Shown: one piece after another, positions 8,031 to 63,847 of the stretch
Layout of the letters: each line of letters starts with the position of its first letter
How positions within the stretch are numbered: position 1 is the first letter of the stretch
Origin: Liolophura sinensis
Taxonomy: Eukaryota > Mollusca > Polyplacophora > Chitonida > Chitonidae
DNA: 64,000 nt
Assembly (NCBI RefSeq): GCF_032854445.1
Contig: NC_088298.1
Coordinates: forward strand, 22,097,295-22,161,294
Direction of reading: 5' to 3'
Program-made: the position numbers and the translations under genes
The notes under the pieces: model-generated
Seen by the model: the letters and a program-made list of their open reading frames with translations, nothing else
Database searches by the model: none
What the model was told of the DNA's origin: nothing

Positions 8031-8035
8031 TTCTC

Positions 8036-8795
8036 TTTGTCCCATTTCATTTGATCCAGATTCTGTTTGTCCAATTTCATTTGGTCCAGATTCTGTTCGT
8101 CCAGTTTCATTTGATCCAGATTCTGTTTGTCCAATTTCATTTGATCCAGGTTCTGTTTGTCCAATTTCATTTGATCCAGATTCTGTTCGTCCAGTTTCAT
8201 TTGATCCAGATTCTGTTTGTCCAATTTCATTTGGTCCAGATTCTGTTCGTCCAGTTTCATTTCATCCAGATTCTGTTTGCCCGATTTCATTTGATCCAGA
8301 TTCTGTTCGTCCAGTTTCATTTGATCCAGATTCTGTTTGTCCAATTTCATTTCATCCAGATTCTGCTTGTCCAATTTCATTTGATCTAGATTCTGTTCGT
8401 CCAATTTCATTTCATCCAGATTCTGTTTGTCCTATTCCATTTGATCCAGATTCTGTTCGTCCTATTTCATATGGCCCAGATTCTGTTTATCCAGTTTCAT
8501 TTGATCCAGATTCTGTTTGTCCAATTTCGTTTGATCCAGATTCTGTTTGTCCAATTTCATTTGATCCAGATTCTGTTCGTCCTATTTCATTTCATCCATA
8601 TTCTGTTCGTCCTATTCCATTTGATCCAAATTCTGTTTGTCCAATTTCATTTGGTCCAGATTCTGTTTATCCAGTTTCATTTGATCAAGATTCTGTTTGT
8701 CCTATTTCATTTTGTCCAGATTCTGTTTATCCAGTTCCATTTGATCCAGATTCTGTTTGTCCAATTTCATTTGATCCAGATTATTTTTGTTCTAA
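8036..8795. repeat. 30-bp minisatellite, about 25 copies
   Basis: The unit is TTTCATTTGATCCAGATTCT followed by GTTTGTCCAA, with few substitutions and almost no indels. Because 30 is a multiple of three and the unit lacks stops, frames stay open on both strands. The - strand frame reads a hydrophilic 10-residue repeat (QNLDQMKLDK) for 151 codons; the + strand reads a hydrophobic one (QILFVQFHLI). Without splice or start evidence it is annotated as satellite DNA. Confidence 0.9.
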
Positions 8796-8799
8796 TAAA

Positions 8800-23205: not shown

Positions 23206-24935
23206 GTGTGAAAATATATACATTGTGACAAGAGGGATGTACATGTGAAAATAAGGACTGTGACAAGATAAACTAAATTATAAGATTGTGGCAAAAAGAA
23301 TGTACACGTGAAAAATAGGACTGTAACAAGAAAGACAGGAAAATATAGGATTGAGACAAGAGGGATGTACATGTAAAAATATAGGATTAAGACAAGAGGG
23401 ATGTACATCTAAAAATACAGGATTGTGACAACAGGGATGTTCATGTAAAAATACAGGATTGTGACAAGAGGGATGTACATGTAAAAATATAGGATTAAGA
23501 CAAGAGGGATGTTCATGTAAAAATACAGGATTGTGACAAGAGGGATGTACATGTAAAAATACAGGATTGTGACAAGAGGGATGTACATGTGAAAATACAG
23601 GATTGTGAGAACAGGGATGTTCATGTAAAAATACAGGATTGTGACAAGAGGGATGTACATGTAAAAATACAGGATTGTGACAAGAGGGATGTACATGTAA
23701 AAATACATGATTGTGACAAGAGGGATGTACATGTAAAAATACATGATTGTGACAAGAGGGATGTACATGTAAAAATACATGATTGTGACAAGAGGGATGT
23801 TCATGTAAAAATACAGGATTGTGACAAGAGGGATGTACATGTAAAAATACAGGATTGTGACAAGAGGGATGTTCATGTAAAAATACATGATTGTGACAAG
23901 AGGGATGTACATGTGAAAATACAGGATTGTGAGAACAGGGATGTTCATGTAAAAATACATGATTGTGACAAGAGGGATGTACATGTAAAAATACATGATT
24001 GTGACAAGAGGGATGTACATGTGAAAATACAGGATTGTGAGAACAGGGATGTTCATGTAAAAATACATGATTGTGACAAGAGGGATGTACATGTAAAAAT
24101 ACAGGATTGTGACAAGAGGGATGTACATATGAAAATACAGGATTGTGACAAGAGGGATGTACATGTAAAAATACAGGATTGTGAGAACAGGGATGTTCAT
24201 GTAAAAATACAGGATTGTGACAAGAGGGATGTACATGTAAAAATACAGGATTGTGACAAGAGGGATGTACATGTAAAAATACAGGATTGTGACAAGAGGG
24301 ATGTACATGTAAAAATACAGGATTGTGACAAGAGGGATGTACATGTAAAAATACATGATTGTGACAAGAGGGATGTTCATGTAAAAATACATGATTGTGA
24401 CAAGAGGGATGTACATGTGAAAATACAGGATTGTGAGAACAGGGATGTTCATGTAAAAATACAGGATTGTGACAAGAGGGATGTTCATGTAAAAATACAT
24501 GATTGTGACAAGAGGGATGTACATGTAAAAATACAGGATTGTGACAAGAGGGATGTACATATAAAAATACAGGATTGTGAGAACAGGGATGTTCATGTAA
24601 AAATACATGATTGTGACAAGAGGGATGTACATGTAAAAATACAGGATTGTGACAAGAGGGATGTACATGTGAAAATACAGGATTGTGACAAGAGGGATGT
24701 ACATGTAAAAATACAGGATTGTGACAAGAGGGATGTACATGTAAAAATACAGGATTGTGACAAGAGGGATGTTCATGTAAAAATACAGGATTGTGACAAG
24801 AGGGATGTACATGTGAAAATACAGGATTGTGACAAGAGGGATGTACATGTAAAAATACAGAATTGCAACAGAAAGGGATGTACATGTAAAAGTACAGGAT
24901 TGTGACAAGAGGGATGTACATACCAAATATAAGAT
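23206..24935. repeat. 36-bp minisatellite, about 42 regular copies after a variable lead-in
   Basis: From about 23,400 the unit GACAAGAGGGATGTACATGT plus AAAAATACAGGATTGT repeats with period 36 to about 24,930. Recurrent alternatives are GTACAT/GTTCAT, ACAGG/ACATG, GACAAGAG/GAGAACAG and TAAAAA/GAAAA. They are shuffled along the array, as unequal exchange or gene conversion would do. The unit has no stop in three of the six frames, giving open frames of 547 and 505 codons on - and 438 on +. These are a product of the period, with no splice or start evidence. Confidence 0.95.
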
Positions 24936-25050
24936 TGTGACAAAATGAATCTCAGATGCACGAAGACGGAAATGTCAGATGCACGAAGACAGCAAGTGAA
25001 ATAGCTTTGAGTATAGAGTAAAACACCAATCAAATTAATAAACAAATGAA
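24936..25050 (+). repeat. short duplicated motif and SINE-A tail
   Basis: Two copies of CAGATGCACGAAGACG/AG occur at 24,954-24,991. Then GCTTTGAGTATAGAGTAAAA and CACCAATCAAATTAATAAA form a diverged family A tail that closes the array. Confidence 0.6.
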
Positions 25051-30682: not shown

Positions 30683-30746
30683 ATGAAGGATTACAGACAG
30701 ATTTTCCGATATATTTTCGTTGTGGCCGCCATTCTACTAGTTATTG
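30683..30746 (+). CDS. Shisa-like gene, exon 1: signal peptide
   Basis: The ATG at 30,683 opens MKDYRQIFRYIFVVAAILLV: a short basic start, then a hydrophobic core of about twelve residues, typical of a signal peptide. The exon ends at 30,746 before a consensus donor (GTGAGT), leaving one base of a split codon (phase 1). That base joins exon 2 at 32,561 to make Gly followed by LEVTLA, a plausible cleavage region. No domain identifies the family in this exon; the assignment rests on exons 3-5. The start is the only in-frame ATG near the hydrophobic core. The encoded protein should enter the secretory pathway with its N-terminus lumenal or extracellular. Confidence 0.75.
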
Positions 30747-30925
30747 GTGAGTATGCAGATAGCCATTGACCTCTAATTTAACCAGCGTGACGCAGGTGTT
30801 GTGCTAGATTTTACCATAAAAAAAACAGAGGGAAAACATAGCTTTCAAATTAAAAATTCTCTCTGGAAAAGTAATCAGAATGTGTAATAAGAATAACTGA
30901 AAATTTAGTAATCGGAAAAAATCAG

Positions 30926-31137
30926 TATTTCGCCCATTCACCTCCTTGTTATTTATCACTGCTGCTCCTTGCAAGAACCCGGATGGTGAAGACTGTGAAT
31001 TCTCCTACGTCTGTAGTAGCCTACCTGGTTTGATTTTAAGTACGTGTACACCGAAGGGTAGTTTTTTTAAGCTTAGCTGTCAAATTGACCTGGTTGGTTT
31101 ATACTGTAGCAATAAACTCCAGTATAACTTTGACTAG
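30926..31137 (+). CDS. possible alternative terminal exon: small Cys-rich peptide
   Basis: An open frame ends at TGA 31,137 and contains TAAPCKNPDGEDCEFSYVC followed by three further cysteines, six in all, with a compact spacing like small secreted peptides. An AG at 30,924-30,925 would start an exon in the phase needed to accept exon 1 (phase 1), placing this frame behind the signal peptide. The acceptor has a poor pyrimidine tract and there is no in-frame ATG. This is either an alternative 3' exon making a short secreted product, an old exon remnant, or chance. No family was recognised. The main transcript would skip it. Confidence 0.3.
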
Positions 31138-31139
31138 TA

Positions 31140-31310
31140 TTTATTTATTTTGTTGATTGGTGTTTTGTACGACGGTGCCAAGCATAATGGTGGGAGAAAA
31201 CCGGGCAGAGTCTGGGGAAAACACATGACCATCTGCAGGTTGCTGGAAAACCGTATTGTTGACATACTACCGAGCTGATAGTCTAACTACTTGGCCAGGG
31301 AGCCCCTCCC
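31140..31310 (-). repeat. SINE-A copy in intron 1
   Basis: In the + reading, TTGATTGGTGTTTTGTACGA, CATAATGGTGGGAGAAAACC, GGGCAGAGTCTGGGGAAAAC and GACCATCTGCAGGTTGCTGG are the reverse of the family A body. It ends near CTTGGCCAGGGAGCCCC, the complement of the tRNA-like 5' end. Confidence 0.75.
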
Positions 31311-31736
31311 CAACCTCACCCACCCCCACAAGACACCTGATTAAGGCCGGAGCACAAAGTTCAAAATTAATATAGCACAAAATAGTATGCCTTTGAAATC
31401 GTCGTTATTCATGAGCGGCATTTGTATGTATGTTTGTACACAAAATAAAACAAAATAAAACAAAAATTACAAAAAGACACATGTTTTGAAATTTTATCAA
31501 TAAATACAATATTATAGATTTGTATGTGTTAGCAATTTACACATACATACTTACGATTTGCGTTCCCAAGTATTTTTATGCCATCGGAATAATATCACTC
31601 AGAGCTATTGACATCACGGTGTTAATTCTCCCATCCTGTTATTCTGTTCGTCCATTTATAACCGAAATATCATAAAAACGGATTCATTTACCGCTATAAC
31701 ACATGGTGAACTTGATCAATGTTTGACGTCGCTGAG

Positions 31737-32365
31737 AAACCGTGAATATACAGTGTGACATGCCTAAACGTGGCACCGCAAAACAGTTTGGAGATAAACA
31801 AATTTAGTACTAAAGCGGACAATTTGACTACATGAATACAGTGTGACATGCATGACATGGCACCGCAAAACAGTTTGGAGGTAAACATATTTAGCACTAA
31901 AGCTTACAATTTGCCTACATGAATACAGTGTGACATGCATGACGTGGCGCCGCAAAACAATTTGGAGATAAACATATTTATTACTAAAGCTGACAATTTG
32001 CCTACATGAATACAGTGTGACATGCATGACGTGGCGCCGCAAAACAATTTGGAGATAAACATATTTATTACTAAAGCTTACAATTTGCCTACATGAATAC
32101 AGTGTGACATGCATGACGTGGCGCCGCAAAACAATTTGGAGATAAACATATTTATTACTAAAGCTGACAATTTGCCTACATGAATACAGTGTGACATGCA
32201 TGACGTGGCGCCGCAAAACAATTTGGAGATAAACATATTTATTACTAAAGCTGACAATTTGCCTACATGAATACAGTGTGACATGCATGACGTGGCACCG
32301 CAAAACAGTTCAGAGATAAACATATTTATTACAAAAGATGACAATTTGACTTCATGAACACAGTG
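31737..32365. repeat. 87-bp minisatellite in intron 1, about seven copies
   Basis: GAATACAGTG recurs at 31,921, 32,008, 32,095, 32,182 and 32,269, exactly 87 bp apart, with nearly identical units between 31,900 and 32,300 and more diverged ones at both ends. The period is a multiple of three and gives a 29-residue repeat open on the - strand (179 codons); no support for coding. Confidence 0.9.
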
Positions 32366-32560
32366 TAGTCGCACCCTATTCTGAAGTATTGTGAAAGAAT
32401 TTCTTTTATATTTTTCTCTCCATGTTCATTCCTTTAAAATCCTAATTATTTCAGCCGAAAAAACTGCCCCTACCGATTCGCCCTGTTTTTGCCTGACATG
32501 GTCGTTATCTGTAAATGATGATTTTTAAGGAGAGCCTTATATAACATGATTGTTTTTCAG

Positions 32561-32910
32561 GTTTGGAGGTGACGCTAGCTCGTGGGCGTGGTGGTGGTCG
32601 TGGAGGTAGTAGAGGCCGCAGTACATCCGTGGCGACAGTGAAGCGCGTAGCAGCAGTAGTGCGCGTAGCAGCAGTGGTACACGTAGCAGTAGTGGTACGG
32701 GTAGCAGCAGTGGTACACGTTTCAGCGGTGGTGGCAGTAGTGGTGTGCTTAGCAGCAGTGGTGGCAGCAGTAGTGCGCGTAGAAGTAGTGGTACGCGTTT
32801 TGGTGGGCGAGGCGTTAGTGGGGCACCTGGCGGCAGTACAACAGCGCTTACCACAGGCAACTTTGGAAATCGCAGACATTTCACAAGGAGGCGCTACTTA
32901 AACAACAAGG
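32561..32910 (+). CDS. Shisa-like gene, exon 2: RG-rich then Ser/Gly-rich extracellular region, frame broken
   Basis: The acceptor TGTTTTTCAG ends at 32,560. In the phase set by exon 1 the exon reads LEVTLARGRGGGRGGSRGRS. From about 32,631 to the donor GTGAGT at 32,911 the sensible frame is another one: Ser/Gly/Arg-rich (ARSSSSARSSSGTR, then GGRGVSGAPGG and NRRHFTRRRYLNNK). Only this second frame leaves the phase-1 base that joins exon 3 as Asp-Ala-Gln-Ile-Cys. The first frame meets TAA near the exon end. One base appears to be missing between about 32,613 and 32,640. Possible causes are sequencing or assembly error, a null allele, or use of an internal acceptor at 32,643 (GTGAAG, no pyrimidine tract). 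Low-complexity linkers between signal peptide and Cys-rich domain are common in fast-evolving surface proteins. Confidence 0.7.
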
Positions 32911-33389
32911 GTGAGTGTCGTAATAAAATAACCTGAAAATACAGTTTTTCTAAGCGCCTATAGCGGCCTGTCCGGAAAGTAAGTAGCTTGTAATCGTCAA
33001 TGACAAGAACTGTCAGAGCAACTTTACAACGGAAAACTTCTGACCCCTCTCGGAAAATATGCACGAAATAGAGGGATCATTTTCAGACATAAGGTATGTC
33101 TCAGAACAGAAACTTTTGTAAATAACTTTCCTCATTGCCCACATAAGCCTAGTCATCGTTTGGGCTTTCCTTTCGCGCATCCTTTAACTTACGGTATTAT
33201 GCCTGGACTCAGTACTATTTTCTTCCATTTTTGTCATGAAAGTCGAAAACAACTTGCTACTTTAAGGTCTTTGCGTCCATTTTGAGATGAGGTCTAAATT
33301 AAAAAGTTTTTCATTTTTGTGTACTTGGTGAGTGTGTGAATTTTTGGTAGGCTGGACGGCTTAAATTAAAAATGAAAATGGTTTTCACA

Positions 33390-34060
33390 GTGCCCTGACA
33401 GGTTTCTTCTTCCCATTGAGATTCTTAAGGAATCTGACTGGTTTTCTCCGACCAGTGAGTTTCCGGGAAAGTTTTGACTGGTTTTCTCTTCTGGATATGT
33501 TTTATTATGATTCTGACTGGTTACCTCTGCCCAATAAGTTTTGACAGCTTTCTGACTGGTTTTCACTGCCCAGTGAGTTTCCTCGGGGTAGAGAATGGGT
33601 TTTCACTGCCCTGTGAGTTTCCTCGGGTAGTGAATGGGTTTTTCTACCAAGTGAGCTTCCTCGGGTAGTGAATGGGTTTTTCTACCAAGTGAGTTTCCTC
33701 GGGGTAGTGAATGGGTTTTTCTACCAAGTGAGTTTCCTCGGGTTAGTGAATGGGTTTTTCTACCAAGTGAGTTTCCTCGGGGTAGTGAATGGGTTTTTCT
33801 ACCAAGTGAGCTTCCTCGGGGTAGTGAATGGGTTTTTCTACCAAGTGAGTTTCCTCGGGGTAGTGAATGGGTTTTTCTACCAAGTGAGCTTCCTCAGTGA
33901 TCTACCGATTGCCTTCTGCCCAGTAAGTTTCATCAGGACTCATGATTGGTTTCCTCCGCCAAATACGTTTCCTCATGCTTCTTACTGGTCTCTTTGCCCA
34001 ATAAGTTTCTCCGGGATTCTGATCAGTCTCCTGTGTCCATTTGTCTCAGGGTTCATAAAT
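33390..34060. repeat. 39-bp minisatellite in intron 2
   Basis: The core at about 33,590-33,900 has nine units of GGTAGTGAATGGGTTTTTCT plus ACCAAGTGAGTTTCCTCGG. It is flanked on both sides by diverged units (TTCTGACTGGTTTTC, CCCAGTAAGTTTC). It reads as a 13-residue repeat on +, with no evidence of coding. The array contains many GTGAGT- and CAAGTGAG-like strings that resemble splice donors. Confidence 0.85.
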
Positions 34061-34124
34061 TAACCGTAAAGGATAAATTTAAATGGTCTGCTTTATTGCA
34101 AACTTTCATTATCTGCGTTTTCAG

Positions 34125-34275
34125 ATGCCCAAATTTGTGAGAATAATAACTTGTACTTAACTGAAGATGAGGCATTTGTCGGAAAGTTCATCTGTCCGAT
34201 GAGTCACCAGCCTGACAACTATGTTTATTGCTGTGGAGAATCAGGGAATCAAAGATGCTGTGCCTTTGACCATGA
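34125..34275 (+). CDS. Shisa-like gene, exon 3: Cys-rich Shisa-type domain
   Basis: The acceptor GCGTTTTCAG ends at 34,124 and the donor GTAAGT starts at 34,276. With the phase-1 base of exon 2 the exon reads DAQICENNNLYLTEDEAFVG, then KFICPMSHQPDNYVYCCGES, then GNQRCCAFDHE. The order C, F-x-C-P, Y-C-C-G, C-C is the hallmark of the N-terminal Cys-rich domain shared by the Shisa, CYYR1, VOPP1 and WBP1 group. In vertebrate Shisa proteins this domain lies before the single membrane span; family members hold receptors in the ER or modulate AMPA receptors. Which of these roles applies here cannot be read from the sequence. The exon ends in phase 2 and joins exon 4. Confidence 0.85.
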
Positions 34276-34479
34276 GTAAGTCTGAATTGTTCAGCAGCGG
34301 CCCGCCATAAGCTGACCTCTCGCACAACTATAGCAGGATTCTTGTAAATATAAGCGTCAAATCCGACATTCCTATACCATTGTGTAGATATTGCTGTGGT
34401 CGGTGGATGTGGTGACTAATACATAAAGGTCACCACAAGCCACTTCCAGCATGTAGCGTTATAACTGTGGTTAGTGGAT

Positions 34480-35240
34480 GCGGTGTCTAACGCTCACCAC
34501 AAGCACACTTTTAGCAGGCTTCTAGCATTCCACTTCCAGCATGTAGCATTACAACTGTGGTTAGTGAGTGCTTGGGGTTTAACGTCGTACTCAACAATTT
34601 TTCAGTCATATGACGACGAAGGAATCATTAGGGTGCATGCACGTGTGATGTGCCTCCTTGTTGCAGGACGGATTTCCACCGCTCTTTTATTTAGTGCTGC
34701 ATCACTGAGACGACTTAACGAAGGCAAGTAAGCCGCCCGCCCGAGCCATTATACTGATACGGGTCAACCTGTCGTGGCACTATCCCCTTCATGCTGAACG
34801 CCAAGCGAGGAAGTTACAACTTCCACTGTGGTTAGTGGATGGAGTGTCTAACGCTCACCACAAGCACACTTGTAACAAGCTTCTAGCATTCCACTATCAG
34901 CACGTAGCGTTACAGCTATGATCAGTGGATACCGTCTAATGCTCACCAAAAGCACACTTGTAGCAAGCTTCTAGTATTCCACTTCAAGCATGTAGCGTTA
35001 CAGCAGTCACTGCATACCATGTCTAAAGCTCACCACAAGCACACCTGTAGCAAGCTTCTAGCATTCCACTACCAGGGCATAGCGTTACAGCTGTGGTCAG
35101 TGGATACAGTGTCTAATGCTCACCACATGCACACTTGTAGCAAGCTTCTAACATTCCACTACCAGCACGTAGCGTTACAGCTGTGGTCAGTGGATACCGT
35201 GGCTGATGCTCACCACAAGCACACTTGTAGCAAGCTTCCA
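34480..35240. repeat. 90-bp minisatellite in intron 3, split by a SINE-B
   Basis: AGCGTTACAG recurs at 35,081 and 35,171, 90 bp apart, with units like CTGTGGTCAGTGGATACAGT, GTCTAATGCTCACCACAAGC, ACACTTGTAGCAAGCTTCTA, GCATTCCACT. Units occur on both sides of the SINE-B at 34,563-34,835, so the SINE landed inside the array. A reading frame is open at 35,019-35,327 because 90 is divisible by three. Confidence 0.85.
34563..34835 (-). repeat. SINE-B copy inside the 90-bp array
   Basis: GCTTGGGGTTTAACGTCGTA, CTCAACAATTTTTCAGTCAT, ATGACGACGAAGGAATCATT, TGCAGGACGGATTTCCACCG, ACGAAGGCAAGTAAGCCGCC, ACTGATACGGGTCAACCTGT and AACGCCAAGCGAGGAAGTT give the fullest B body in the window. The tRNA head (on -) is cut off where array sequence resumes. 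Confidence 0.85.
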
Positions 35241-35350
35241 TCGTTGCGCGGCGCAATGACCCAGGAGCCTCTTGGCAATGCGCTTATGATGACTCACTCT
35301 CCGGTCTTACGTGAGAAGGTCTGTTAGCAACCTGCGGGTTGGCGTGGGTT
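35240..35350 (+). repeat. SINE-A fragment at the end of the 90-bp array
   Basis: GCAATGACCCAGGAGCCTCT, CTCTCCGGTCTTACGTGAGA, AGGTCTGTTAGCAACCTGCG and GGCGTGGGTT are pieces of the family A head and body. The tail is missing. Confidence 0.7.
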
Positions 35351-35686
35351 TGTAACCGTAAGCGAATGATATCCCGATGCAACCTGCTTTGTACACCATA
35401 TTCTTAGGCGACCAAAACGTTTACCATAACTGGGTATGTGTTAAGTGTTATTTTCTTGAAAATGTCTTTTTCATTAGTCAGAATAAAACAAAATCATTCC
35501 CTGTGGACTCACCCTATTTTTTTCTGATAGAATTGAGTTATCCCCAACAAAGAAGTTATCCCCAACAAAAAATATTTTATGGGTATCCCTTCATCCAGAT
35601 TTCTCTCGCAGTACCCGAAAAACGTCTAATGAATTGATTACATGTTATTAATTGAGCACACATTATATCTGGCATATTCTTCTTAG

Positions 35687-35820
35687 TTTCAGTTCCGGTA
35701 GAATTGCGGGGATTGCAATCGGAACATGTCTCTCATTCATAATTATCAATGTAATAATATTCTGCTGCTGCAAATATCATGCAAAGGAGTTAGAAATGAA
35801 GTCCAAAGACTCCATCAAAT
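35687..35820 (+). CDS. Shisa-like gene, exon 4: transmembrane segment
   Basis: Two in-frame acceptors are possible, after 35,686 (TTCTTAG) or after 35,692 (TTTCAG); they differ by two codons. Joined to the phase-2 end of exon 3 the exon reads FSSGRIAGIAIGTCLSFIII, then NVIIFCCCKYHAKELEMKSK and DSIK. This is one hydrophobic span of about 22 residues beginning with a G-x-x-x-G-type stretch, followed by three cysteines and a basic/charged stop-transfer segment. Such cysteine clusters just inside the membrane are typical of Shisa-type proteins and may be palmitoylated (inference). The donor GTAAGT at 35,821 leaves phase 1, which every tail exon copy downstream accepts as T+CA = Ser. Confidence 0.85.
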
Positions 35821-35939
35821 GTAAGTACATCGATCCTCCCTTGTTTACCATAATACTGAAAGTAAACTATTATTCTTTGATCACGTCATATGCCGTACTT
35901 GCTAAAAATGTCGCTTGGCTAGCTGTAGCCCACCAAATG

Positions 35940-36512
35940 GTTGCCATGTGCCTGGACAATTTAGACACCACTGAGAACATACCCCTGCATGGGGATAAAT
36001 TAAACACCACTGAGAACATAAACATGTATGGGTACAAATTAGACATCACTGAGAACATAAACATGTATGGGGACAAATTAGACATCACTGAGAACACAAA
36101 CATGTATGGGCGCAAATTAGACACCACTGAGAACATAAACATGTATGGGGACAAATTAGACACCACTGCGAATATACCCCTACATGGGGACAAATTAGAC
36201 ACCACTGAGAACATAAACATGTATGGGGACAAATTAGACACCACTGAGAACATAAACATGTATGGAGACTAATTAGACACCACTGAAAACATAAACATGT
36301 GTGGGGACAAATTAGACACCACTGAGAACATACCCCTGCATGGTGACAAATTAGACTTCACTGAGAACATAAACCTTCATGGTGACAAACTAGACATCAC
36401 TGAGAACATACCCCTGCATGGTGACAAATTAGACTTCACTGCGAACATAAACCTTCATGGGGACAAATCAGACTTCACTGAGAACATAACCCTACATGGG
36501 GACAAATTAGAC
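35940..36512. repeat. 39-bp minisatellite in intron 4, about 14 copies
   Basis: The unit is GACAAATTAGACACCACTGA, GAACATAAACATGTATGGG with two main variants (AACATGTATGGG and CCCCTGCATGGG). The frame of exon 4 runs on through its donor and through this array to a TAA at 36,270-36,272, so retention of this intron would add a 13-residue repeat tail (TTENINMYGDKLD). A second stretch is open at 36,297-36,542. Confidence 0.9.
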
Positions 36513-36556
36513 ACAATTGAGTACGGTGTAAAACGCCATTGAAATAAAATAAAATA
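36513..36556 (+). repeat. SINE-A 3' tail fragment
   Basis: ATTGAGTACGGTGTAAAACG and CCATTGAAATAAAATAAAAT is a diverged family A tail lying directly at the end of the 39-bp array, the same arrangement as at 24,995-25,050. Confidence 0.7.
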
Positions 36557-38195
36557 GATCAAAGTGCCATTCTATTAGGTCTGCTCAGAATTATCTCCCT
36601 TGTTATAGTAACAATGACGTAACGAGAGGATAGTTTTTGATCCGTGAAATAACGACAAGTGGGATGTCGTCTATTCAATCAAGCAGTATGAAGGTTATGT
36701 CGCGACAGAGACAACAAAATGTAAGATGAAAAACATGATGTCAGCTTTTGGAGTCACAGATATGGAGATCTCTTGAGTGAAGTCCATGTTTTTCAGCTGA
36801 AAGAGTTAGACAATGCTGTTGTATTTAATTAAGGCCAAGATTTTAAAATTACCCATCCCTACGAATTGATTAAAAACAAAACCTAACGTTTCCCTGGGCT
36901 TTCCAACTAGGTTTACAAAACCAAAATCTGCATTAAAGCTAGGTCTTCAACGAGTTTATGCCTCTTTTAACTCCAAGGCTTGTTACTAGACATAATACTC
37001 AGGTCTCTCCAAACAAAGTTTACTCCTAAAAATGCACCTTTTAAACTGGGAAGTTACCTAAAGGAAGGTATTTCGGTGTGACCCCATTATAAACATCCAC
37101 AGAACCTTAAGAATCAGACGAAATAAGTAGCTTAAATCAGATCAAATATAGGGTAACCTAGAAACGAGACGACGTCTTCATACACAAGTAATTTTATATT
37201 CGGGCTTTTGCCCACGCCGCCTTTCTCTCAGCTGTATAAGAGCTGTATAAAGAAGCGTGCTTTTGTATACTGACTGACTAAAGAGATGAGATCCAGGTAC
37301 ACACTAGTCCATGAAAGGTATGAGATCCTTTACACTAAGAACATAATCTCCAGGAAAATCATCAAGCCAATACCTGAGAGTAGGTGAAAAGTTCTATTAT
37401 GAAGAAAAGAAGTATATACAGGTGTGGACAGGTGTTTTGTTTGTTGTTATGTACCTGTTGTGTAACTAGACTTTATTTCACCTTGACTTCACACATGCAT
37501 ACTGTATGTTGACCTCTCCTGACAAGGAGGTAAAATGGCTGCTATTGTGTAAGGACTTCCTGGTAAAGATACCGATGGCTGGTTGAATGAATCCTGCGGA
37601 AAGTTTTTGTTGAACATTCCGTGCCTTCTTTGAATTTAAAGGATTTATTCATCAACCAAATTGTTGCACGAATTCTGTAAAATGTAGCAGTTGAATGTTT
37701 CACCGGAATATTTTATCACACACATGTTCATGTATTTAAACTAAATAAATGTTTCGACCATAACCAAATTGCTTCAATACAAGTATGATTAAAAAAATTA
37801 TTAGTGAAACTTTACACGAAGTATTTTACCACATATTTAAACTAATGATTAAAAAGAAAATTGATTAACATATGTGACTAAAAATATTAGCACTGAATTT
37901 TTCCACTGAATATTTTAGGACTTAAATTAGAACTTTTCATTCAAAGCCAACTGAAACCGTTACAAGTACAATATACACGCACAGCGTATAATTTAAATAT
38001 TCATGAGTTGGGTAGTGCATTGGAAAACTCACCCTTTACATTGACACAAAACCATAAGAGCAACATGTATGCGGGTTGAATAACTGCTTTCAGAAGTCCT
38101 ATAAGTTTTGAAGAATCATATATCCTATAATGTAATTTTTAAAAAAACATGTAGGAAAAATACCACCCTTTCACAGTGAGATTTGTAGGTATACA
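36557..38195. other. intron 4 sequence without recognised features
   Basis: AT-rich. No exon with matching phase and Shisa-tail composition was found before the duplicated units begin at about 38,200. Confidence 0.4.
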
Positions 38196-38749
38196 GAAAA
38201 CCTGTTATATGTAGCCCATGACGTGCAGCTTACTGCCTTAATCCGGTTTGTAAGAGTGTATATTAGTATACACGTATTTGTTTGCATGGGGACTCTTGAG
38301 TGATATATGTACCCTCACCTAATGACACCTCGTCTTGCTGTGACTGAAAACTGCACAACGTTAACTATCAAGTATACACACATATACCCTAATTCTGCCC
38401 ATTTCTGGGGACAGGTGTTAACAGTGTTGAAAGTAGAGTATTACATTTCTTCCTTTTCGAAAAGTAAAGATATCAGTATGTTGTTCATTGCATGGTCTAA
38501 ACATATGAGAAAAAGAAACTCACCAGGAGTCCCAAACATAAGAAGAAATAGGATACAAAAAGAGTTACAATTGATCGCGCATAGAATACGAGGAATGTTG
38601 TTGCTAGTATTGCGAAAGGACTTTCGTGTACCGTATAACAAATGTTGCCGTGTACACAGTTGTATTTAGTCACCCATACATAATTTGTCTCTCGAATATG
38701 AAAGAATAGTTTCCGTGGACGGATGGTTGGCGTGGTTACAACATAAACT

Positions 38750-38753
38750 ATAT

Positions 38754-38812
<59 letters not shown>

Positions 38813-38850
38813 TTTGTTTGTTTGTTTGTTTGTTTGTTTATTTATTAAAC
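38750..38850. repeat. (TTTA)n(TTTG)n microsatellite, unit 1
   Basis: About 17 TTTA repeats then six TTTG repeats. The same site in unit 2 (40,813-40,884) is all TTTA, and in unit 3 (42,803-42,895) mostly TTTG. Confidence 0.95.
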
Positions 38851-39302
38851 TGTTGTCCTTCCTCGTCATTTTCACATGTGAAAGAGCAACATTCAATGCG
38901 ATTTATAAGGACATTTTTAATTTAAGTTTAGGAACACAACTACATTGATTGGCTTTGCCAGTTACAGGAATTTCCCAAAGAAGTATAATTCTATCATTCT
39001 GCACAGAATAATACACAAGGATATATTGAAATAAACATCTTGCAAACACTAGAATAGGTTAAACAATTGACAGTATTGTACTATGCGACATGAAATATTT
39101 AACAGAAACCGGTCTGTATCATTGCTTAAGACTTGGTGCTGCATTAATATTTTACAATCAGGAGGTTTATTAATAATATACCTACAAATACCTGCATGCT
39201 CACAAAAGGATATTAGTTTAATTTGGGCACTCTGGTCACCCTTGCCTTTATATGCTCAATCCTGACTGCACTGGTGTAACGGAAGAAGACAGGAGGTTAC
39301 GC

Positions 39303-39590
39303 TACTTTATTTTTATTTGATTTATTTGATAAGTGTTTTACGCCGTACTCAAGAATATTTCACTTATACGACGGCCAGCATTATGGTGGGAGGAAATCCG
39401 GGCAGAGCCCAAGGGAAGCCCACGACCATCCGCAGGATGCTTCTATACCTTAGCACGTACTGCCGGAGAGGAAGCTAGCATGAGTTGGACTTGAATTCAC
39501 AGCGACCGCATTGGTGAGATGATCCTGGGGCATTGAGCCGCTCTGGCGTGCTAACCACCTCTGCCAACGAGGCCCCCTCCCACATACTTC
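39303..39590 (-). repeat. SINE-A upstream of tail exon 1
   Basis: In + reading: GTGTTTTACGCCGTACTCAA, GAATATTTCACTTATACGAC, GGCCAGCATTATGGTGGGAG, CCACGACCATCCGCAGGATG. It ends in the complement of the head (TTGGACTTGAATTCACAGCG for the B-box region, CGTGCTAACCACCTCTGCCA for the A-box region). Full length. Confidence 0.9.
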
Positions 39591-39664
39591 TATAATTATC
39601 AATAATAATATTTAGGTACATACATGTACTCACACACATATTTCGGTTTTCGTTCTGTTTACAG

Positions 39665-39861
39665 CATCCAATCCTCGTAACTCGACCTACTCTAATGGTA
39701 CAGACTCTGGTGGCTCTGGCCCTGATGGTACAGACTCTGTTGGCTCTGGCCCTGATGGTGCCGACTCTGATGGCCATTTTACACTTGATCCTGAGTTGCA
39801 ACCCCCATCTTATAACGAGATAGACGGCATGCCTTACTCGCCCAACCCGACAGGTAAATAA
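39665..39861 (+). CDS. Shisa-like gene, cytoplasmic tail exon, copy 1
   Basis: The acceptor TTCTGTTTACAG ends at 39,664. Phase 1 from exon 4 gives Ser-Ser-Asn, then PRNSTYSNGTDSGGSGPDGT with two 10-residue units of the type GGSGPDGTDS, then PPSYNEIDGMPYSPNPTGK and TAA. It lacks the 24 bp coding ELQMQSDY that the other copies have. PPSY is a PPxY motif, the ligand of WW domains such as those of NEDD4-type ubiquitin ligases; such motifs are typical of Shisa tails. The exon can also be read as internal, because a GTAAAT donor follows ACAG in the same phase; see findings. Confidence 0.75.
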
Positions 39862-40818
39862 GACATTATTACTGTAATGTGTGGAGACAAGGACGACAAC
39901 GTCATATTGTAACGAGATTCCAACGAGACTTCAAAAAAATCCAGTTGGGCATCTATGTAAAAATCTGAATCTCGACTACATCTCGCGCCCTAGATCCAAT
40001 CTCTCGTCTTTGTGCATTTCTTAACTAGATCTATAGCAAGTCTCTTCAGAACCTTGACCAAATGACGCACAGTGCATTTTATTTGAACCAAGGAGAACAT
40101 GGCCGCTTCCGGCTTCCATAGAAATCACCTAAAATGTCGCTCACGTCCAAGTTGCACATTTAGTGCCATTAAATCGGCTGTTTTTGTCTAACGTGTGTGA
40201 GGCCCACAACGAAGGCAGTGCGGATTTAGCAGAGGCATGTAATCTACAGGAAATACCCGAAATACCTGTTATATGTAGCCCATGACGTGCAGCTTACTGC
40301 CTTAATCCGGTTTGTAAGAGTGTATATTAGTATACACGTATTTGTTTGCAAGGGGACTCTTGAGTGATATATGTACCCTCACCGAATGACACCTCGTCTT
40401 GCTGTGACTGAAAACTGCACAACGTTAACTATCAAGTATACACACACATACCCTAATTCTGCCCATTTCTGGGGACAGGTATTAACAATGTTGAAAGTAG
40501 AATATTACATTTCTTCCTTTTCGAAAAGTAAAGATATCAGTATGTTGTTCATTGCATGGTCTAAACATATGAGAAAAAAGAAACTCACCAGGAGTCCCAA
40601 ACATTAGAAGAAATAGGATACAAAAAGAGTTACGACTGATCGCGCATAGAATACGAGGAATGTTGTTGCTAGTATTGCGAAAGGACTTTCGTGTACCGTA
40701 TAACAAATGTTGCCGTGTACACAGTTGTATTTAGTCGCCCATACATAATTTATCTCTCGAATATGAAAGAATAGTTTCCGTGTACGGATCGTTGGCGTGG
40801 TTACAACATAAACTATAT

Positions 40819-40881
<63 letters not shown>

Positions 40882-41351
40882 TTAAACTGTTGTTCTTCCT
40901 CGTCATTTTCCCATGTGAAAGAGCAACATTCAATGCGATTTATAAGGACATTTTTAATTTAAGTTCAGGAACACAACTACATTGATTGGCTTTGCCAGTT
41001 ACAGGAATTTCCCAGAGAAGTATAGTTCTATCATTCTGCACAGAATAATACACCAGGATATATTGAAATAAACATGTTTCAAACACGAGAATGGGTTTAA
41101 CAATTGACAGTATTGTACTATGCGACATGAAATATTTAGCAGAAACTGGTCTGTATCATTGCTTAAGACTTGGCGCTGCATTTATATTTTACAATCAGGA
41201 GGTTTATTGATTATATGCCTGCAAAGACCTGCATGCATGCATGCTCACAAAAGGATAGTAGTTTAATTTGGGCACTCTGGTCACCCTTGCCTTTATATGC
41301 TCAATCCTGACTGCGCTGGTGTAACGGAAGAAGACAGGAGGTTACGCTACT

Positions 41352-41545
41352 TTATTTTTATTTGATTTATTTGATAAGTGTTTTACGCCGTACTCAAGAA
41401 TATTTCACTTATACGACGGCGGCCAGCATTATGGTGGGAGGAAATCCGGGCAGAGCCCAAGGGAAGCCCACGACCATCCGCAGGTTGCTTCTATACCTTA
41501 GCACGTACTGGCGTGCTAACCACCTCGGCCAACGAGGCCCCCTCC
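41352..41545 (-). repeat. SINE-A upstream of tail exon 2, internally deleted
   Basis: Matches the unit 1 SINE until GCTTCTATACCTTAGCACGT, then jumps to GGCGTGCTAACCACCTCGGC. The B-box region is lost, a deletion of about 90 bp. Confidence 0.85.
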
Positions 41546-41629
41546 CACATACTTCTATAATTATTATTAATAATATTTAGGCACATACATGTACTCACAT
41601 AGATATTTTTGATTTCGTTCTGTTTACAG

Positions 41630-41850
41630 CATCCAATGAGCTCCAAATGCAATCTGACTATCCTCGTAACTCGACCTACTCTAATGGTACAGACTCTGGT
41701 GGCTCTGGCCCTGATGGTACAGACTCTGTTGGCTCTGGCCCTGATGGTCCAGACTCTGATGGCCAATTTACACTTGATCCTGAGTCTCAACCCCCATCTT
41801 ATAACGAGATAGACGGCATGCCTTACTCGCCCAACCCGACAGGTAAATAA
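41630..41850 (+). CDS. Shisa-like gene, cytoplasmic tail exon, copy 2
   Basis: Acceptor at 41,629. Reads SNELQMQSDYPRNSTYSNGT, two GSGPDG-type repeats, then FTLDPESQPPSYNEIDGMP, YSPNPTGK and TAA. It keeps the PPSY motif and is a complete version of the exon, with the ELQMQSDY segment. The end is flanked by the same potential donor (ACAG then GTAAAT). Substitutions between copies are few and none breaks the frame, which suggests recent duplication or selection to keep the frame. Confidence 0.75.
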
Positions 41851-43371
41851 GACATTATTACTGTAATGTGTGGAGACAAGGACGACAACGTCATATTGTA
41901 ACGAGATTCCAACGAGACTTCAAAAAAATCCAGTTGGGCATCTATGTAAAAATCTGAATCTCGACTACATCTCATGCCCTAGATCCAATCTCTCGTCTTT
42001 GTGCATTTCTTAACTAGATCTATAGCAAGTCTCTTCAGAACCTTGACCAAAACAATCCCAGTGCATTTTATTTGAACCAAGGAGAACATGGCCGCTTCCG
42101 GCTTCCATAGTAATCACCTAAAATGTCGCTCATGTCTAAGTTGCACCTTTAGTGCCATTAAATCGGCTGTTTTTGTCTAACGTGTGTGAGGCCCACAACG
42201 AAGGCAGTACAGATTTAGCAGAGGCATGTAATCTACAGGAAATACCCGAAATACCTGTTATATGTAGCCCATGACGTGCAGCTTACTGCCTTATTCCGGT
42301 TTGTAAGAGTGTATATTAGCATACACGTATTTGTTTGCAAGGGGACTCTTGAGTGATATATGTACCCTCACCTAATGACACCTCGTCTTGCTGTGACTGA
42401 AAACTGCACAACGTTAACTATCAAGTATACACACACATACCCTAATTCTGCCCATTTCTGGGGACAGGTATTAACAATGTTGAAAGTAGAATATTACATT
42501 TCTTCCTTTTCGAAAAGTGAAGATGTCAGTATGTTGTTCATTGCATGGTCTAAACATATGAGAAGAAAGAAACTCACCAGGAGTCCCAAACATTAGAAGA
42601 AATAGGATACAAAAAGAGTTACGACTGATCGCGCATAGAATACGAGGAATGTTGTTGCTAGTATTGCGAAAGGACTTTCGTGTACCGTATAACAAATGTT
42701 GCCGTGTACACAGTTGTATTTAGTCGCCCATACATAATTTATCTATCGAATATGAAAGAATAGTTTCCGTGGACGGATGGTTGGCGTGGTTACAACATAA
42801 ACTATATTTATTTATTTATTTATTTGTTTGTTTGTTTGTTTGTTTGTTTGTTTTTTTGTTTGTTTCTTTGTTTGTTTGTTTGTTTATTTATTAAACTGTT
42901 GTTCTTCCTCGTCATTTTCACATGTGAAAGAGCAACATTCAATGCGATTTATAAGGACATTTTTAATTTAAGTTCAGGAACACAACTACATTGATTGGCT
43001 TTGTCAGTTACAGGAATTTCCCAAAGAAGTATATAGTTCTATCATTCTGCACAGAATAATACGCCAGGATATACTGAAATAAATATCTTGCAAACACGAA
43101 AATAGGTTAAACAAGTGACAGTATTGTACTATGCGACATGAAATATTTAACAGAAACTGGTCTGTATCATTGCTGAAGACTTGGCGCTGCATTAATATTT
43201 TACAATCAGGGGGTTTATTAATAATATACCTACAAATACCTGCATGCTCACAAAAGGATATTAGTTTAATTTGGGCACTCTGGTCACCCTTGCCTTTATA
43301 TGCTCAATCCTGACTACGCTGGTGTAACGCAAGAAGACAGGAGGTTACGCTACTTTATTTTTACTTGATTT

Positions 43372-43640
43372 ATTTGATAAGTGTTTTACGCCGTACTCAA
43401 GAATATTTCACTTATACGACGGCGGCCAGCATTATGGTGGGAGGAAATCCGGGCAGAGCCCAAGGGAAGCCCACGACCATCCGCAGGATGCTTCTATACC
43501 TTAGCACGTACGGCCGGGGAGGAAGCTAGCATGAGTTGGACTTGAATTCACAGCGACCGCATTGGTGAGAGGATCCTGAGTCTTTTAGCCGCTCTGGCGT
43601 GCTAACCACCTCTGCCAACGAGGCCCTCTCCCAGATACAT
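43372..43640 (-). repeat. SINE-A upstream of tail exon 3
   Basis: Same insertion as in units 1 and 2, full length with both A-box and B-box regions on the - strand. Confidence 0.9.
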
Positions 43641-43715
43641 CTATAATTATCAATAATAATATTTAGGTACATACATGTACTCACACATATATTTTGGTTT
43701 TCGTTCTGTTTACAG

Positions 43716-43936
43716 CATCTAATGAGCTCCAAATGCAATCTGACTATCCTCGTAACTCGACCTACTCTAATGGTACACACTCTGCTGGCTCTGGCCCTGA
43801 TGGTCCAGTCTCTGCTGGCTCTGGCCCTGATGGTCCAGACTCTGATGGCCATTTTACACTTGATCCTGAGTCTCAACCCCCATCTTATAACGAGATAGAC
43901 GGCATGCCTTACTCGCCCAACCCGACAGGTAAATAA
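43716..43936 (+). CDS. Shisa-like gene, cytoplasmic tail exon, copy 3
   Basis: Acceptor at 43,715. The first codons are TCT AAT GAG, a silent change from the other copies. It reads ELQMQSDYPRNSTYSNGTHS, then AGSGPDGPVSAGSGPDGPDS, then PPSYNEIDGMPYSPNPTGK and TAA. The PPSY motif is kept; replacements are confined to the Ser/Gly/Asp repeats. Same splice phase and same flanking potential donor as the others. Confidence 0.75.
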
Positions 43937-44138
43937 GACATTATTACTGTAATGTGTGGAGACAAGGACGACAATGTCATATTGTAACGAGATTCCAACG
44001 AGACTTCAAAAAAATCGAGTTGAGCATCTATGTAAAAATCTGAATCTCGACCCTCAGATACTTTTTTAATTTTCAATAATAATATTTAGGTACATACATG
44101 TACTCACACATATATTTTGGTTTTTGTTCTGTTTACAG

Positions 44139-44389
44139 CATCCAATGAGCTCCAAATGCAATCTGACTATCCTCGTAACTCGACCTACTCTAATGATGCA
44201 GACTCTGCTGGCTCTGGCCCTGATGGTACAGACTCTGGTGGCTCTGGCCCTAATGGCCCAGACTCTGGTGGCTCTGGCCCTGATGGTCCAGACTCTGATG
44301 CCTATTTTTCACATGATCCTGAGTTTCTATCCCCGTCTTATGACGGGCTAGACGGCATGCCTTACTCGCCCAACCCGACAGGTAAATAA
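44139..44389 (+). CDS. Shisa-like gene, cytoplasmic tail exon, copy 4 (diverged)
   Basis: Acceptor at 44,138. It has three, not two, of the 10-residue Gly/Ser/Asp units, and reads FSHDPEFLSPSYDGLDGMP where the others have the PPSYNEIDGMP segment. The first Pro of PPxY is Ser (SPSY), so the canonical WW ligand is lost. The end YSPNPTGK and TAA is kept. Only about 200 bp separate it from copy 3, with no SINE between. Its 3' flank (44,411-44,507) holds about 95 bp missing after copies 1-3. It may be the original last exon. Confidence 0.75.
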
Positions 44390-45229
44390 GACATTATTAC
44401 TGTAATGTATGGAAACCGAGTGTGGCCATGCTCTTCTTTTACATACTTACCCCAAACCATAACAACGATATCAAAGTGACACTGCGAGATTTAGTCGAGA
44501 TTGGGTGAAGATAAGGACGACAACTTCATATTGTAACGAGATTCCAACGAAACTTCAAGTTGGGCATCTATGTAAACATCTGAATTTTGACTACATCACA
44601 CGCCCTAGTTCCAATCTCTCTTCTTTGTGCATTTCTTAACTAGATCACTAGCAAGTCTCTTCAGAATCACGCACAGTGCATTTTATTTGAACCAAAGAGA
44701 ACATGGCCGCTTCTGGCTTCCATAGAAATCACCTAAAATGTCGCTCATGTCTAAGTTGCACCTTTAGTGCCATTAAATCGGCTGTTTTTGTCTAACGTGT
44801 GTGAGGCCCACAACGAAGGCAGTGCGGATTTAGCAGAGGCATGTAATCTACAGGAAATACCCTTTAGTGAGTTAATCTCCCTAATGAGTATCAGGATTAC
44901 ATACCTGCTTTCTTTCACGGTAAGTTATTCCGTTTTTGTTAAAATTTAAAGGTTTTTACAATGCGCATTTGTTTTCATCTTTCAGTGAGAGAAAAGGCAA
45001 GAGAATTGAGAATCAAAAACTGTGAAATAAAAACGGTCAAATTTCACCCCTGGAGGTTTAGTCCCCTAATTTATTTGTCCAGAACATTCCTTGAGTCTGG
45101 AACATTCTTTTATCACTAAAATCTTTTAACCATTTCTCTCTGCTATAATCCGTCCTAATTTCTTACGTTAAAATGCTTTATTAGTTCTGGTTCTTTAGTG
45201 ATTTGTATTGAACGTTGTTTTGGACACAT
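44390..45229 (+). other. 3' flank of the Shisa-like gene
   Basis: Up to about 44,868 this is the unit trailer (CACCTAAAATGTCGCTCATG, CGTGTGTGAGGCCCACAACG). From there the sequence is single copy. A further coding exon with the P-Y-S-P-N-P motif was looked for and not found. Possible poly(A) signals occur but none can be preferred. Confidence 0.5.
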
Positions 45230-46965
45230 GTCCTGTGATTATTCACCCGCACCTGAAACCCACATAAATATCTGGATGGAAGTGTCGGGGTTTCCTCTGG
45301 ATTCCTCCGCCTGTTTCTTCTTCATGCAGTCATTTTGGATTCGTTGCAGCTTTACATCAGGAGGTTTGGCTTGTGCCTGGGTGGAAGTGCTGTGGTTTCT
45401 TGAGGGCACTGCCTGATATCCTTCTTCAGTCATGGCGAATTCGCTGCAGCCTTGCATCAGGAGGTTTGGCTTGTACCTAGGTGGAAGTGCTGTGGTTTCA
45501 TGTGGGCACTACCTAATGTCCTCCTTTAGTCATGGTGAATTCGCTGCAGACTTGCATCAGGAGGTTTGACTTGTACCTAGGTGGAAGTGCCGTGGTTTCA
45601 TGTGGGCACTACCTAATGTCCTTCTTCAGTCATGGTGAATTCTCTGCAGCCTTACATCAGGAGGTTTGACTTGTACTTAGGTGGAAGTGCCGTGGATTCA
45701 TGTGGGCACTACCTAATGTCCTCCTTCAGTCATGGTGAATTCTCTGCAGCCTTACATCAGGAGGTTTGACTTGTACCTAGGTGGAAGTGCCGTGGATTCA
45801 TGTGGGCACTACCTAATGTCCTCCTTCAGTCATGGTGAATTCTCTGCAGCCTTACATCAGGAGGTTTGACTTGTACCTAGGTGGAAGTGCCGTGGTTTCA
45901 TGTGGGCACTACCTAATGTCTTCCTTCAGTCATGGTGAATTCTCTGCAGCCTTGCATCAGGAGGTTTGACTTGTACCTAGGTGGAAGTGCCGTGGTTTCA
46001 TGTGGGCACTACCTAATGTCCTCCTTCAGTCATGGTGAATTCTCTGCAGCCTTACATCAGGAGGTTTGACTTGTACCTAGGTGGAAGTGCCGTGGTTTCA
46101 TGTGGGCACTACCTAATGTCCTCCTTCAGTCATGGTGAATTCGCTGCAGCCTTGCATCAGGAGGTTTGACTTGTACTTAGGTGGAAGTGCCGTGGTTTCA
46201 TGTGGGCACTACCTAATGTCCTCCTTCAGTCATGGTGAATTCTCTGCAGCCTTACATCAGGAGGTATAGGTGGAATAGGTGGAAGTGCTGTGGTTTTCTC
46301 TGACATTTGCATGATGTCTTCCCACTGTCAATGTGGACTGCCTATGGCCTTAGGTCAGGAGGACTCTCTTGTGCCTGCTTGGAAGTCGTGCTTTCCCTTG
46401 GGCTCTGCCTGATGTCCTCCCGCGATCATGTTGGATTGGTTGTAGTCTTACATCAGGAGGTCTGTTTTGTACCTGTTTTGAAGTGCCGTGGTTTCCCCTG
46501 GCCTCTGCCTGATGTCCTCCCGCAATCATGGTGGATTGGTTGTAGTCTTACATCAAGAGGTCTGTTTTGTACCTGTTTGGAAGTGCCGTGGTTTCCCCTG
46601 GCCTCTGCCTGATGTCCTCCCGCGATCATGGTGGATTGGTTGTAGTCCTACTTCAGGAGGTCTGTCTTGTACCTGTTAGGAAGTGCCGTGGTTTCCCCTG
46701 GCCTCTGCCTGATGTCCTTCGCCAGTCACGGTGGATTGATTGTAGCCCTACTTCAGGAGGTCTGTCTTGTACCAGGGTGGAAGTGCCATGGTTCCCCTGG
46801 GCTCTTCTTGAAGTCCTCCCTCAGTCATGGTGAATTGGTTGCAGCCATACAGCAGGTCTGTCGTGTACCTGTTTGGAAGTGCCGTGGTTTCCCATGGGCT
46901 CTTCCTGAAGTCCTCCCTCAGTCATGGTGAATTGGCTATAGCCTTATATCAGCTCTGTCTGATCA
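45230..46965. repeat. 100-bp minisatellite, about 17 copies
   Basis: TCTCTGCAGC or TCGCTGCAGC occurs at 45,541, 45,641, 45,741, 45,841 and so on, exactly 100 bp apart, up to about 46,270. From there to about 46,965 a diverged sub-family continues with the same period (TTACATCAGGAGGTCTGTTT, TTTCCCCTGGCCTCTGCCTG). Since 100 is not divisible by three, each frame is used in turn and open frames are short. Confidence 0.9.
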
Positions 46966-53571: not shown

Positions 53572-55123
53572 AACTACCAGGCAAAAGAAAGGTTTCACCG
53601 TATTTTTTGTCATAAAAAAAGTAAAAGCGCGGTTCCGGGTTTGATTCTAAGTAGGACTTAGTGTATGACTGCATTGTTTCCTCTACCAGAACGCATCGTC
53701 ACGAACGCAGCAATTGGAATTGTGAAATTGCCACCACATGCAAAACGTCCTTTTGAGGCATGGCTCGTGATGCACGTCCGGTAATGTTGCATAAATACTC
53801 TTGCTCGAAAGAGCAGACATTCAGTGACCGAAAAAACACCAACAGTATGCCAAGACTTACGCAAACGCAACGAGGCCAGGCCATCGGTATGTCCACCATG
53901 GGAGTCTCGCAACGTCACATTGCAAGAACGTTCAACTGCAGCCAAACCACCATCAGGAGGTTGTTGATACGCTATCAGCAGACAGGCCAGACCCAAGACA
54001 GACCAAGATCGGGAAGACCGAGGGTAACAACTGCGGCTGATGATCGCTACATCAGGCAGATCCACCTTCGAAACCGATTCGTCACGGCGACGTCAACAGC
54101 GTCGACGGCACTAGGCCATGTCATCAGCCCCAGAACAACACTGCGTCGTCTTCGTTCAGCTGGTTTACGACCTTACCGCCCCTTCCGTGGGATGGCCTTG
54201 ACCCTTTTACACCGTCAACACAGATTGCGATGGGCACGTATTGTACGTCAGTGGCAGCGACGTGACTGGGCAAGAGTGCTGTTTACAGACGAGAGCAGGT
54301 TCTGTCTATTCAGGAACGATGGCAGAGTTCGAGTTTTCCGACGAAGAGGCGAGCGTCTCGCGCCAAACTGCGTAAGAGAGGTTTATCCGTTTGGTGGCGG
54401 AGGCGTCATGGTTTGGGGAGGGATTTATGACCAAATGAAGACGCAGCTGGTTATTGTGTGAGGTAATCTGACTGGCCAGCGATACGTTGATGAGGTACTG
54501 AGACCTGTCGTCGTTCCTTTCCTCCAACGACAGCCAAGAGGATCGATCTTGCAACACGACAACGCAAGACCTCACACTGCCCGCATTGTTACAGACTACC
54601 TCGAGACCGCAAACGTCATCGTGTTGCCCTGGCCAGCCAACTCACCAGACATGAACCCCATTGAGCATCTCTGGGATCACCTTGACCGCCGTTTGAGACA
54701 GCTGGTGCCTCCTCCAACTAACCAACAGGAACTTGAGCAAGCTCTGTTAAACCTATGGAGCCTTATCCCTGTTGACGTCATCCGGCGACTGACGACGTCA
54801 ATGCTGAGGCGTGTGCTTGCTTGCATTGATGCCCAGGGTGGCCACACTCGCTACTGATGACTGTAGTCCTTCATTTCTGTGGATACTGTGACTTTACATG
54901 CACTTGCCAGTTAACTTTACATTTGTGTAATTTTTTCTTCTTACCCCTTGTCTCTTTCATTGTGTTTTGTGGCCAATTGAATGCCAATATTTTAAAGCAT
55001 TTTTCAGAGAATATTTCACAATGATTCCTGTTTATAAACCAATCCTCTTAATTCTTATATCTGCCTTTGTTTTTCTTTTATGGGCTCAAGAAGTGGGTAA
55101 AACCTTTCTTTTGCCTGGTAGTA
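53572..55123 (+). mobile_element. Tc1/mariner-type transposon, complete with inverted ends
   Basis: The left end ACTACCAGGCAAAAGAAAGG with TTTCACC and the right end, read in reverse, ACTACCAGGCAAAAGAAAGG with TTTTACCC form terminal inverted repeats of about 27 bp. TA flanks both sides (53,570-53,571 and 55,124-55,125). Copy 1 of the surrounding duplication shows the unoccupied site with a single TA at 51,540-51,541, so both ends are set by direct comparison. The element is about 1,552 bp, usual for Tc1-like elements, and holds one transposase frame. Confidence 0.92.
53847..54857 (+). pseudogene. Tc1-like DD34E transposase, one in-frame stop
   Basis: The best start is ATG 53,847 (MPRLTQTQRGQAIGM), which gives 336 codons, the usual length. 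The frame is interrupted only by TGA at codon 205 (54,459-54,461), just before GNLTGQRYVDEVL. Paired helix-turn-helix DNA-binding regions occupy about residues 5-110, with the GRPR linker motif at 56-59. The catalytic triad is seen as D148 in LFTDESRF, D238 in LQHDNARPH and E273 in NSPDMNPIEHLW, with 34 residues between the last two (DD34E). The family cuts and pastes its own element at TA sites. The single stop would separate the first catalytic Asp from the other two residues, so this copy is probably inactive, and recently so since no other lesion is seen. An upstream in-frame ATG at 53,760 is possible but makes the protein longer than is usual. Confidence 0.92.
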
Positions 55124-63713: not shown

Positions 63714-63847
63714 CTAAGCTTTAATGGGAATCTGCTTACTAGAGTAGCCCTGGCCAGCAGCATTAGGATCCGAATAGTAGTTTGGTGGGTTTGGTTCAAC
63801 AAACCCCACGGGGTTGGGCGAGTAAGGTGGTGCTGCGGGTTGACTGC
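63714..63847 (-). CDS. last coding exon of a second Shisa-like gene (5' part beyond the window)
   Basis: On the - strand an acceptor (CTTTTTACCCACAG) ends at 63,848. The exon from 63,847 begins with two bases of a split codon (phase 1), then reads SQPAAPPYSPNPVGFVEPNP, PNYYSDPNAAGQGYSSKQIP, IKA and TAG at 63,714-63,716. The segment P-P-Y-S-P-N-P-V-G matches M-P-Y-S-P-N-P-T-G of the + strand gene's tail exons, with the same phase-1 entry. Its Pro/Tyr-rich composition is typical of Shisa-type cytoplasmic tails. It has no strict PPxY motif (P-P-Y-S and P-P-N-Y; the latter fits PPxY if read P-P-N-Y, residues 20-23), so it could still bind a WW domain. The upstream exons with the Cys-rich and membrane parts should lie to the right of 64,000. 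Confidence 0.75.

Follow-up and report, generated by a model that had tools for sequence, protein, structure and literature searches.

The Shisa-like or STMC6 adaptors, which include CYYR1, combine a cysteine-rich ectodomain containing CC pairs with one transmembrane segment and a cytoplasmic tail carrying PPxY motifs, as set out in the family description within PMC11399591. The passages on human CYYR1 in the same paper report three PPxY motifs in its tail and indicate that their number matters, since loss of a single motif barely affects binding of WWP1, while pairwise losses drastically abolish it. Tandem duplication of exons takes two familiar forms. Duplicated exons can substitute for one another, either as mutually exclusive exons or as swaps at the C-terminus, or a symmetric 1-1 exon can be duplicated together with its intron, so that an open series of repeats grows. 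Here we describe F, a gene of Liolophura sinensis with the same ectodomain, transmembrane and PPxY tail organization, in which one tail exon has been quadrupled. The window analysed is a stretch of 64,000 nucleotides (nt) at positions 22097295-22161294 of NC_088298.1 (C4), and the assembly searched comprises 609 Mb. The four copies, T1 to T4, arose by tandem duplication, and we propose that they would be spliced in series. The exons of F, in window coordinates and with a slash at the exon end, are as follows.

30683..30746, plus strand: exon 1, start codon and signal-peptide-like segment, phase 1 donor G/GTGAGT; a similar exon is found in paralog C (80% over 20 amino acids)
32561..32910, plus strand: exon 2, Gly/Ser/Arg-rich, 350 nt; open in paralogs B and C
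34125..34275, plus strand: exon 3, Shisa-like cysteine-rich ectodomain (YCCG...RCC)
35693..35820, plus strand: exon 4, transmembrane and juxtamembrane segment, phase 1 donor T/GTAAGT
38197..44862, plus strand: tandem duplications of about 2 kb, comprising the tail exon with the intron around it; similarity is about 93-97% for most copies and lower for the last one, which is shortened
39665..39853, plus strand: T1, 189 nt, phase 1-1, PPSY, lacking the ELQMQSDY segment, donor CAG/GTAAATAAG
41630..41842, plus strand: T2, 213 nt, phase 1-1, PPSY
43716..43928, plus strand: T3, 213 nt, phase 1-1, PPSY
44139..44381, plus strand: T4, 243 nt, phase 1-1, SPSY in place of PPSY

Tandem repeat arrays also lie in the introns of F or just after it, at 31681-32463 (period 87 nt), 33469-33973 (39), 35867-36607 (39) and 45227-46280 (100).

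An earlier note, made from the letters of the window, had proposed four tail exons starting at 39,665, 41,630, 43,716 and 44,139. These exons are real, and the phases given there for exons 1, 3 and 4 are correct. Each tail exon is preceded by ttctgtttacag, and the phase-1 codon delivered by exon 4 fits all four. The note let every tail end at a TAA. Such a TAA is indeed present in frame, where the copies read GTAAATAA (4/4), but it falls just beyond CAG/GTAAATAAG, a good splice donor with which each copy ends. The copies are therefore symmetric exons, divisible by three in length and in phase 1 at both ends, that can be joined in series. Indeed, the series from exon 1 through exons 3 and 4 to T1, T2, T3 and T4 is open throughout, without a stop. 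When phase 1-1 exons were sought between about 35.8 and 60.0 kb of the window with a generic scan of splice sites (threshold 8), T1-T4 were returned and nothing else above the threshold.

Comparison with paralogs revealed the original position of this exon. The protein encoded by exons 3 and 4 gave 16 matches in the whole assembly, 13 of them on C4 (expectation value (E) <=7.8e-4). These 13 mark F and nine further ectodomain places; eight of the ten lie between 21.94 and 22.22 Mb. F is thus a member of a Shisa-like family of single-pass membrane proteins located mostly in one cluster, and this cluster is a local family expansion. It spans C4 positions 21943215-22220155, with eight ectodomain exon matches counting F; two more lie on C4 at 18.19 and 4.76 Mb. 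Three paralogs were examined closely, each over 20-30 kb: B, the neighbouring gene on the minus strand, C at 22.19 Mb and D at 18.19 Mb. One exon of B falls within the window, and its other exons lie past the right end.

63714..63847, minus strand: last coding exon of paralog B (PYSPNPVGF...)

In these stretches B, C and D each contain a single F-type tail exon. In B and C this exon ends CCTACAG/GTAAATA, the same donor as in F without the TAA; D has kept the donor position with a weaker GTAGAC site, again without TAA. After the tail exon (168 nt in B, 315 nt in C) both B and C continue with two further coding exons, the first of 147 and 120 nt, respectively, and then the last exon, and the frame runs uninterrupted from exon 2 through the last exon to the stop. 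Given that B and C have this exon in an internal position, where the donor is kept, the TAA is absent and coding exons follow, we conclude from sequence comparison that the tail exon of F is ancestrally internal and was multiplied in F by tandem duplication of a unit of about 2 kb. The earlier note had read the copies as mutually alternative 3' exons; the internal position in B and C, the missing TAA in B, C and D and the in-frame series leave that claim unsupported.

The gene models of the paralogs draw on several kinds of evidence. The phase 1-1 scan returned two exons in B (threshold 8), both with family similarity, one in D (threshold 8) that is probably false, and five in C (threshold 8.5), of which two are supported and three probably false. 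At threshold 8 it passed over the last exon of B and the tail exon of D, which have low-scoring donors. Protein similarity is the basis for those exons that a further splice-site scan skipped because its scores penalise their splice sites: exon 2 of C, exon 4 of both B and D, and exon 3 of each of the four genes. The DNA of the paralogs was also compared in six frames, with a result too noisy to stand by itself. Exon 1 of paralog B was looked for and not found. In the more distant paralogs (L025-L029, L032, L049, L050) no similar tail exon was seen. Paralog D has two copies of the last-type tail exon (L031:500-601 and 1017-1121), separated by about 0.5 kb, which represent an earlier exon duplication within the family. 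Together with the array of F, it implies that exons in these tails were duplicated more than once.

In F the T1, T2 and T3 units measure about 2 kb, their introns are roughly 96% alike (1699 of 1768 aligned positions between the T1-T2 and the T2-T3 intron), and the T4 unit is shortened. In assembly-wide searches for the array, in which only the best candidates were scored, it was found at F alone. No alternative allele turned up; the other matches were to paralog C, to a fragment of the unit lying upstream and to seven short, dispersed stretches. The array most likely originated by ordinary duplication of a symmetric exon.

Downstream of the array F differs from its paralogs. Profile searches with their two downstream exon types found no match on the plus strand of the window (E up to 1). 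Over the whole window the last-exon-type profile recovered the minus-strand exon of B at E 1.6e-19 and otherwise weak matches to T1-T3 (E 0.077-0.09), and the middle-exon-type profile recovered nothing anywhere in the window (E up to 1). Candidate downstream last exons, for example one with its first base at 44986, were rejected for lack of family similarity. The downstream exons of F appear to have been lost. Since the last exon of B lies in opposite orientation at 63.7-63.8 kb, the 3' end of F is most likely located between 44.4 and 63.7 kb. Read past its donor, T4 continues with Gly-Lys-stop, the TAA being at 44387-44389, and T4, read through the old donor, probably forms the end of the F protein.

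Where splice sites are compatible and frames do not clash, neighbouring exons should by default be joined in order. A unit of exon and intron was duplicated in tandem to give four tail copies, each of which kept acceptor, donor and phase 1-1 frame; splicing from exon 4 would then include T1, T2, T3 and T4 in series, and T4, having no downstream exon to join, would be read through its former donor into the in-frame TAA. This reading, in which a quadrupled tail exon is spliced in series and ended by read-through of T4, has in our judgement about an even chance of being correct. Serial joining would keep the tail multivalent despite the missing downstream exons. In series F would have three PPxY motifs, approaching the four of the whole tails of B and C, where they are spread over two to three exons, while a single copy of F holds one (T1-T3) or none (T4). 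The duplication may thereby compensate for motifs lost with the downstream exons, so that WW-domain proteins, for example ubiquitin ligases of the NEDD4 family, would still meet a multivalent tail; that F may bind them is suggested by its motif.

Several observations weigh against this reading. PPSY, as the earlier note had recorded, is present in three of the four tails; T4 has SPSY. The known tail exons of D contain no PPxY, hence the motif is not kept across the family, and the single tail exon of C holds three PPxY by itself. That a TAA follows every donor in frame is also compatible with each copy serving as an ending. Among the tail copies the ratio of nonsynonymous to synonymous substitution rates (dN/dS) ranges from 0.77 to 2.32, on few changes (1-3 synonymous, 3.5-15 nonsynonymous), and the tail exons are 90.5-96.8% alike, which is not more conserved than the introns. 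Nothing indicates selection keeping four tail copies. Finally, exon 2, which the earlier note overlooked, has a broken frame in F as assembled. Its counterpart is a conserved Gly/Arg-rich exon that is open in B (204 nt) and C (207 nt) and partially matched in D. In F a one-base frame break places the conserved start and end in different frames, with 350 nt instead of 351. If included as assembled, exon 2 leads to a stop ahead of the transmembrane exon; if skipped, the frame is kept, the flanking exons being in phase 1.

Mainly because of this frame break, a decaying gene is a serious rival explanation, which we nevertheless consider less likely than not. A Shisa-like gene would have lost the frame of exon 2 and its 3' exons by rearrangement, and the array would be a neutral local tandem duplication with no selected product. 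The unmatched downstream exon types, the tail-copy dN/dS near or above 1 and the lack of any greater conservation of tail exons over introns all fit decay, as does the failure to find an intact allele: the assembly yielded a second copy neither of exon 2, whose sole other match is a short one to paralog C, nor of the array. However, exons 1, 3 and 4 and the four tail frames and splice sites are intact, although the tail copies are too young to weigh much. Exons 3 and 4 evolve under constraint. Between F and B, dN is 0.25, dS 0.62 and dN/dS 0.40 (85 codons), which resembles the remaining five pairs among F, B, C and D (dN 0.30-0.42, dS 0.74-1.36; 82-85 codons). Skipping of exon 2 would spare the frame. 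Furthermore, exon 1 of paralog C (L023:300-364) likewise ends one base out of phase with exon 2 of C, by assembly error or decay, so that single-base assembly errors may occur, and such an error is possible for both genes.

The four copies could also be alternative 3'-terminal exons, each transcript using one of them, so that four isoforms would differ in their tails. The four acceptors matching the phase of exon 4 and the in-frame TAA after each copy agree with this, and ATTAAA is found 315 nt past the exon end of T1 and T2 and 391 nt past that of T4. Such hexamers are common by chance, however: AATAAA or ATTAAA occurs 23 times in 16.2 kb, about 0.6 expected per 400 nt, and neither is present between the T3 donor and T4. 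The homologous exon of B and C is internal, with a conserved donor and without TAA, and neither the splice sites nor the frame would bar joint inclusion. We regard this explanation as improbable. Even so it would be of a known kind: the data on C-terminal duplicated-exon swaps in PMC9741552 count 77 of 236 human events, and such swaps are not rare. Least credible is a graded tail of one to four modules. At each copy the transcript would either be spliced to the next one or be cleaved within the intron that follows, the donor-overlapping TAA then ending the protein cleanly. GTAAATAA in frame at every copy and ATTAAA after T1, T2 and T4 would suit this reading, but a single chance change of GTAAATA could account for the TAA, T3 has no such hexamer and, the copies being young, their shared TAA is not independent. 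If the reading is true, F would set valency for ubiquitin-ligase partners by tissue.

Compared with the described forms of exon duplication, F, under serial splicing, resembles tandem-duplicated exon substitution in having tandem homologous exons of matching phases, and differs from it in joint inclusion in frame and in the internal position of the exon in the paralogs. It shares with repeat growth by 1-1 exons the duplication of exon plus intron and the open series; unlike in simple repeat growth, the downstream exons seem lost and the last copy is probably terminal. With respect to the family, the translation of exon 4 contains, judged by eye, one hydrophobic stretch after the cysteine-rich exon, consistent with a single transmembrane segment. 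F scored 19.5 bits against Pfam Shisa_N (PF13908; E 0.0011), below the cut-off of 22, and of five relatives one lies above it (23.7 bits) and four below (15.9-21.9 bits). The CYYR1 profile (PF10873) reported no match of F at E up to 10, and paralog B reached 13.6 bits against a cut-off of 31. The label Shisa-like, for a single-pass protein with a multiplied cytoplasmic exon, is fair; the CYYR1 half of the earlier designation is not shown. Protostomes that have the family possess one or two shisa genes in the counts given in PMC7653359, whose definition may exclude genes such as F, B, C and D. No report of tail-exon duplication in the Shisa-like family was found in searches of open-licence PMC text, and passages of PMC5549309 do not bear on tail exons.

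Elsewhere in the window, two adjacent open frames at 53757-54857 on the plus strand resemble what we take to be a Tc1/mariner-type transposase. Long open frames on both strands at 8014-8865 and 23278-24951 are built of short repeats and are probably satellite-like sequences and not genes.

Our analysis corrects a reading of this locus by which four isoforms would have been counted, whereas comparison with the paralogs favours a single tail that is longer and repeated. If F is expressed, it would represent a recent natural multiplication of PPxY motifs by exon duplication, in a family in which motif number affects E3-ligase binding, and the single-copy paralogs in the same genome would serve as controls.

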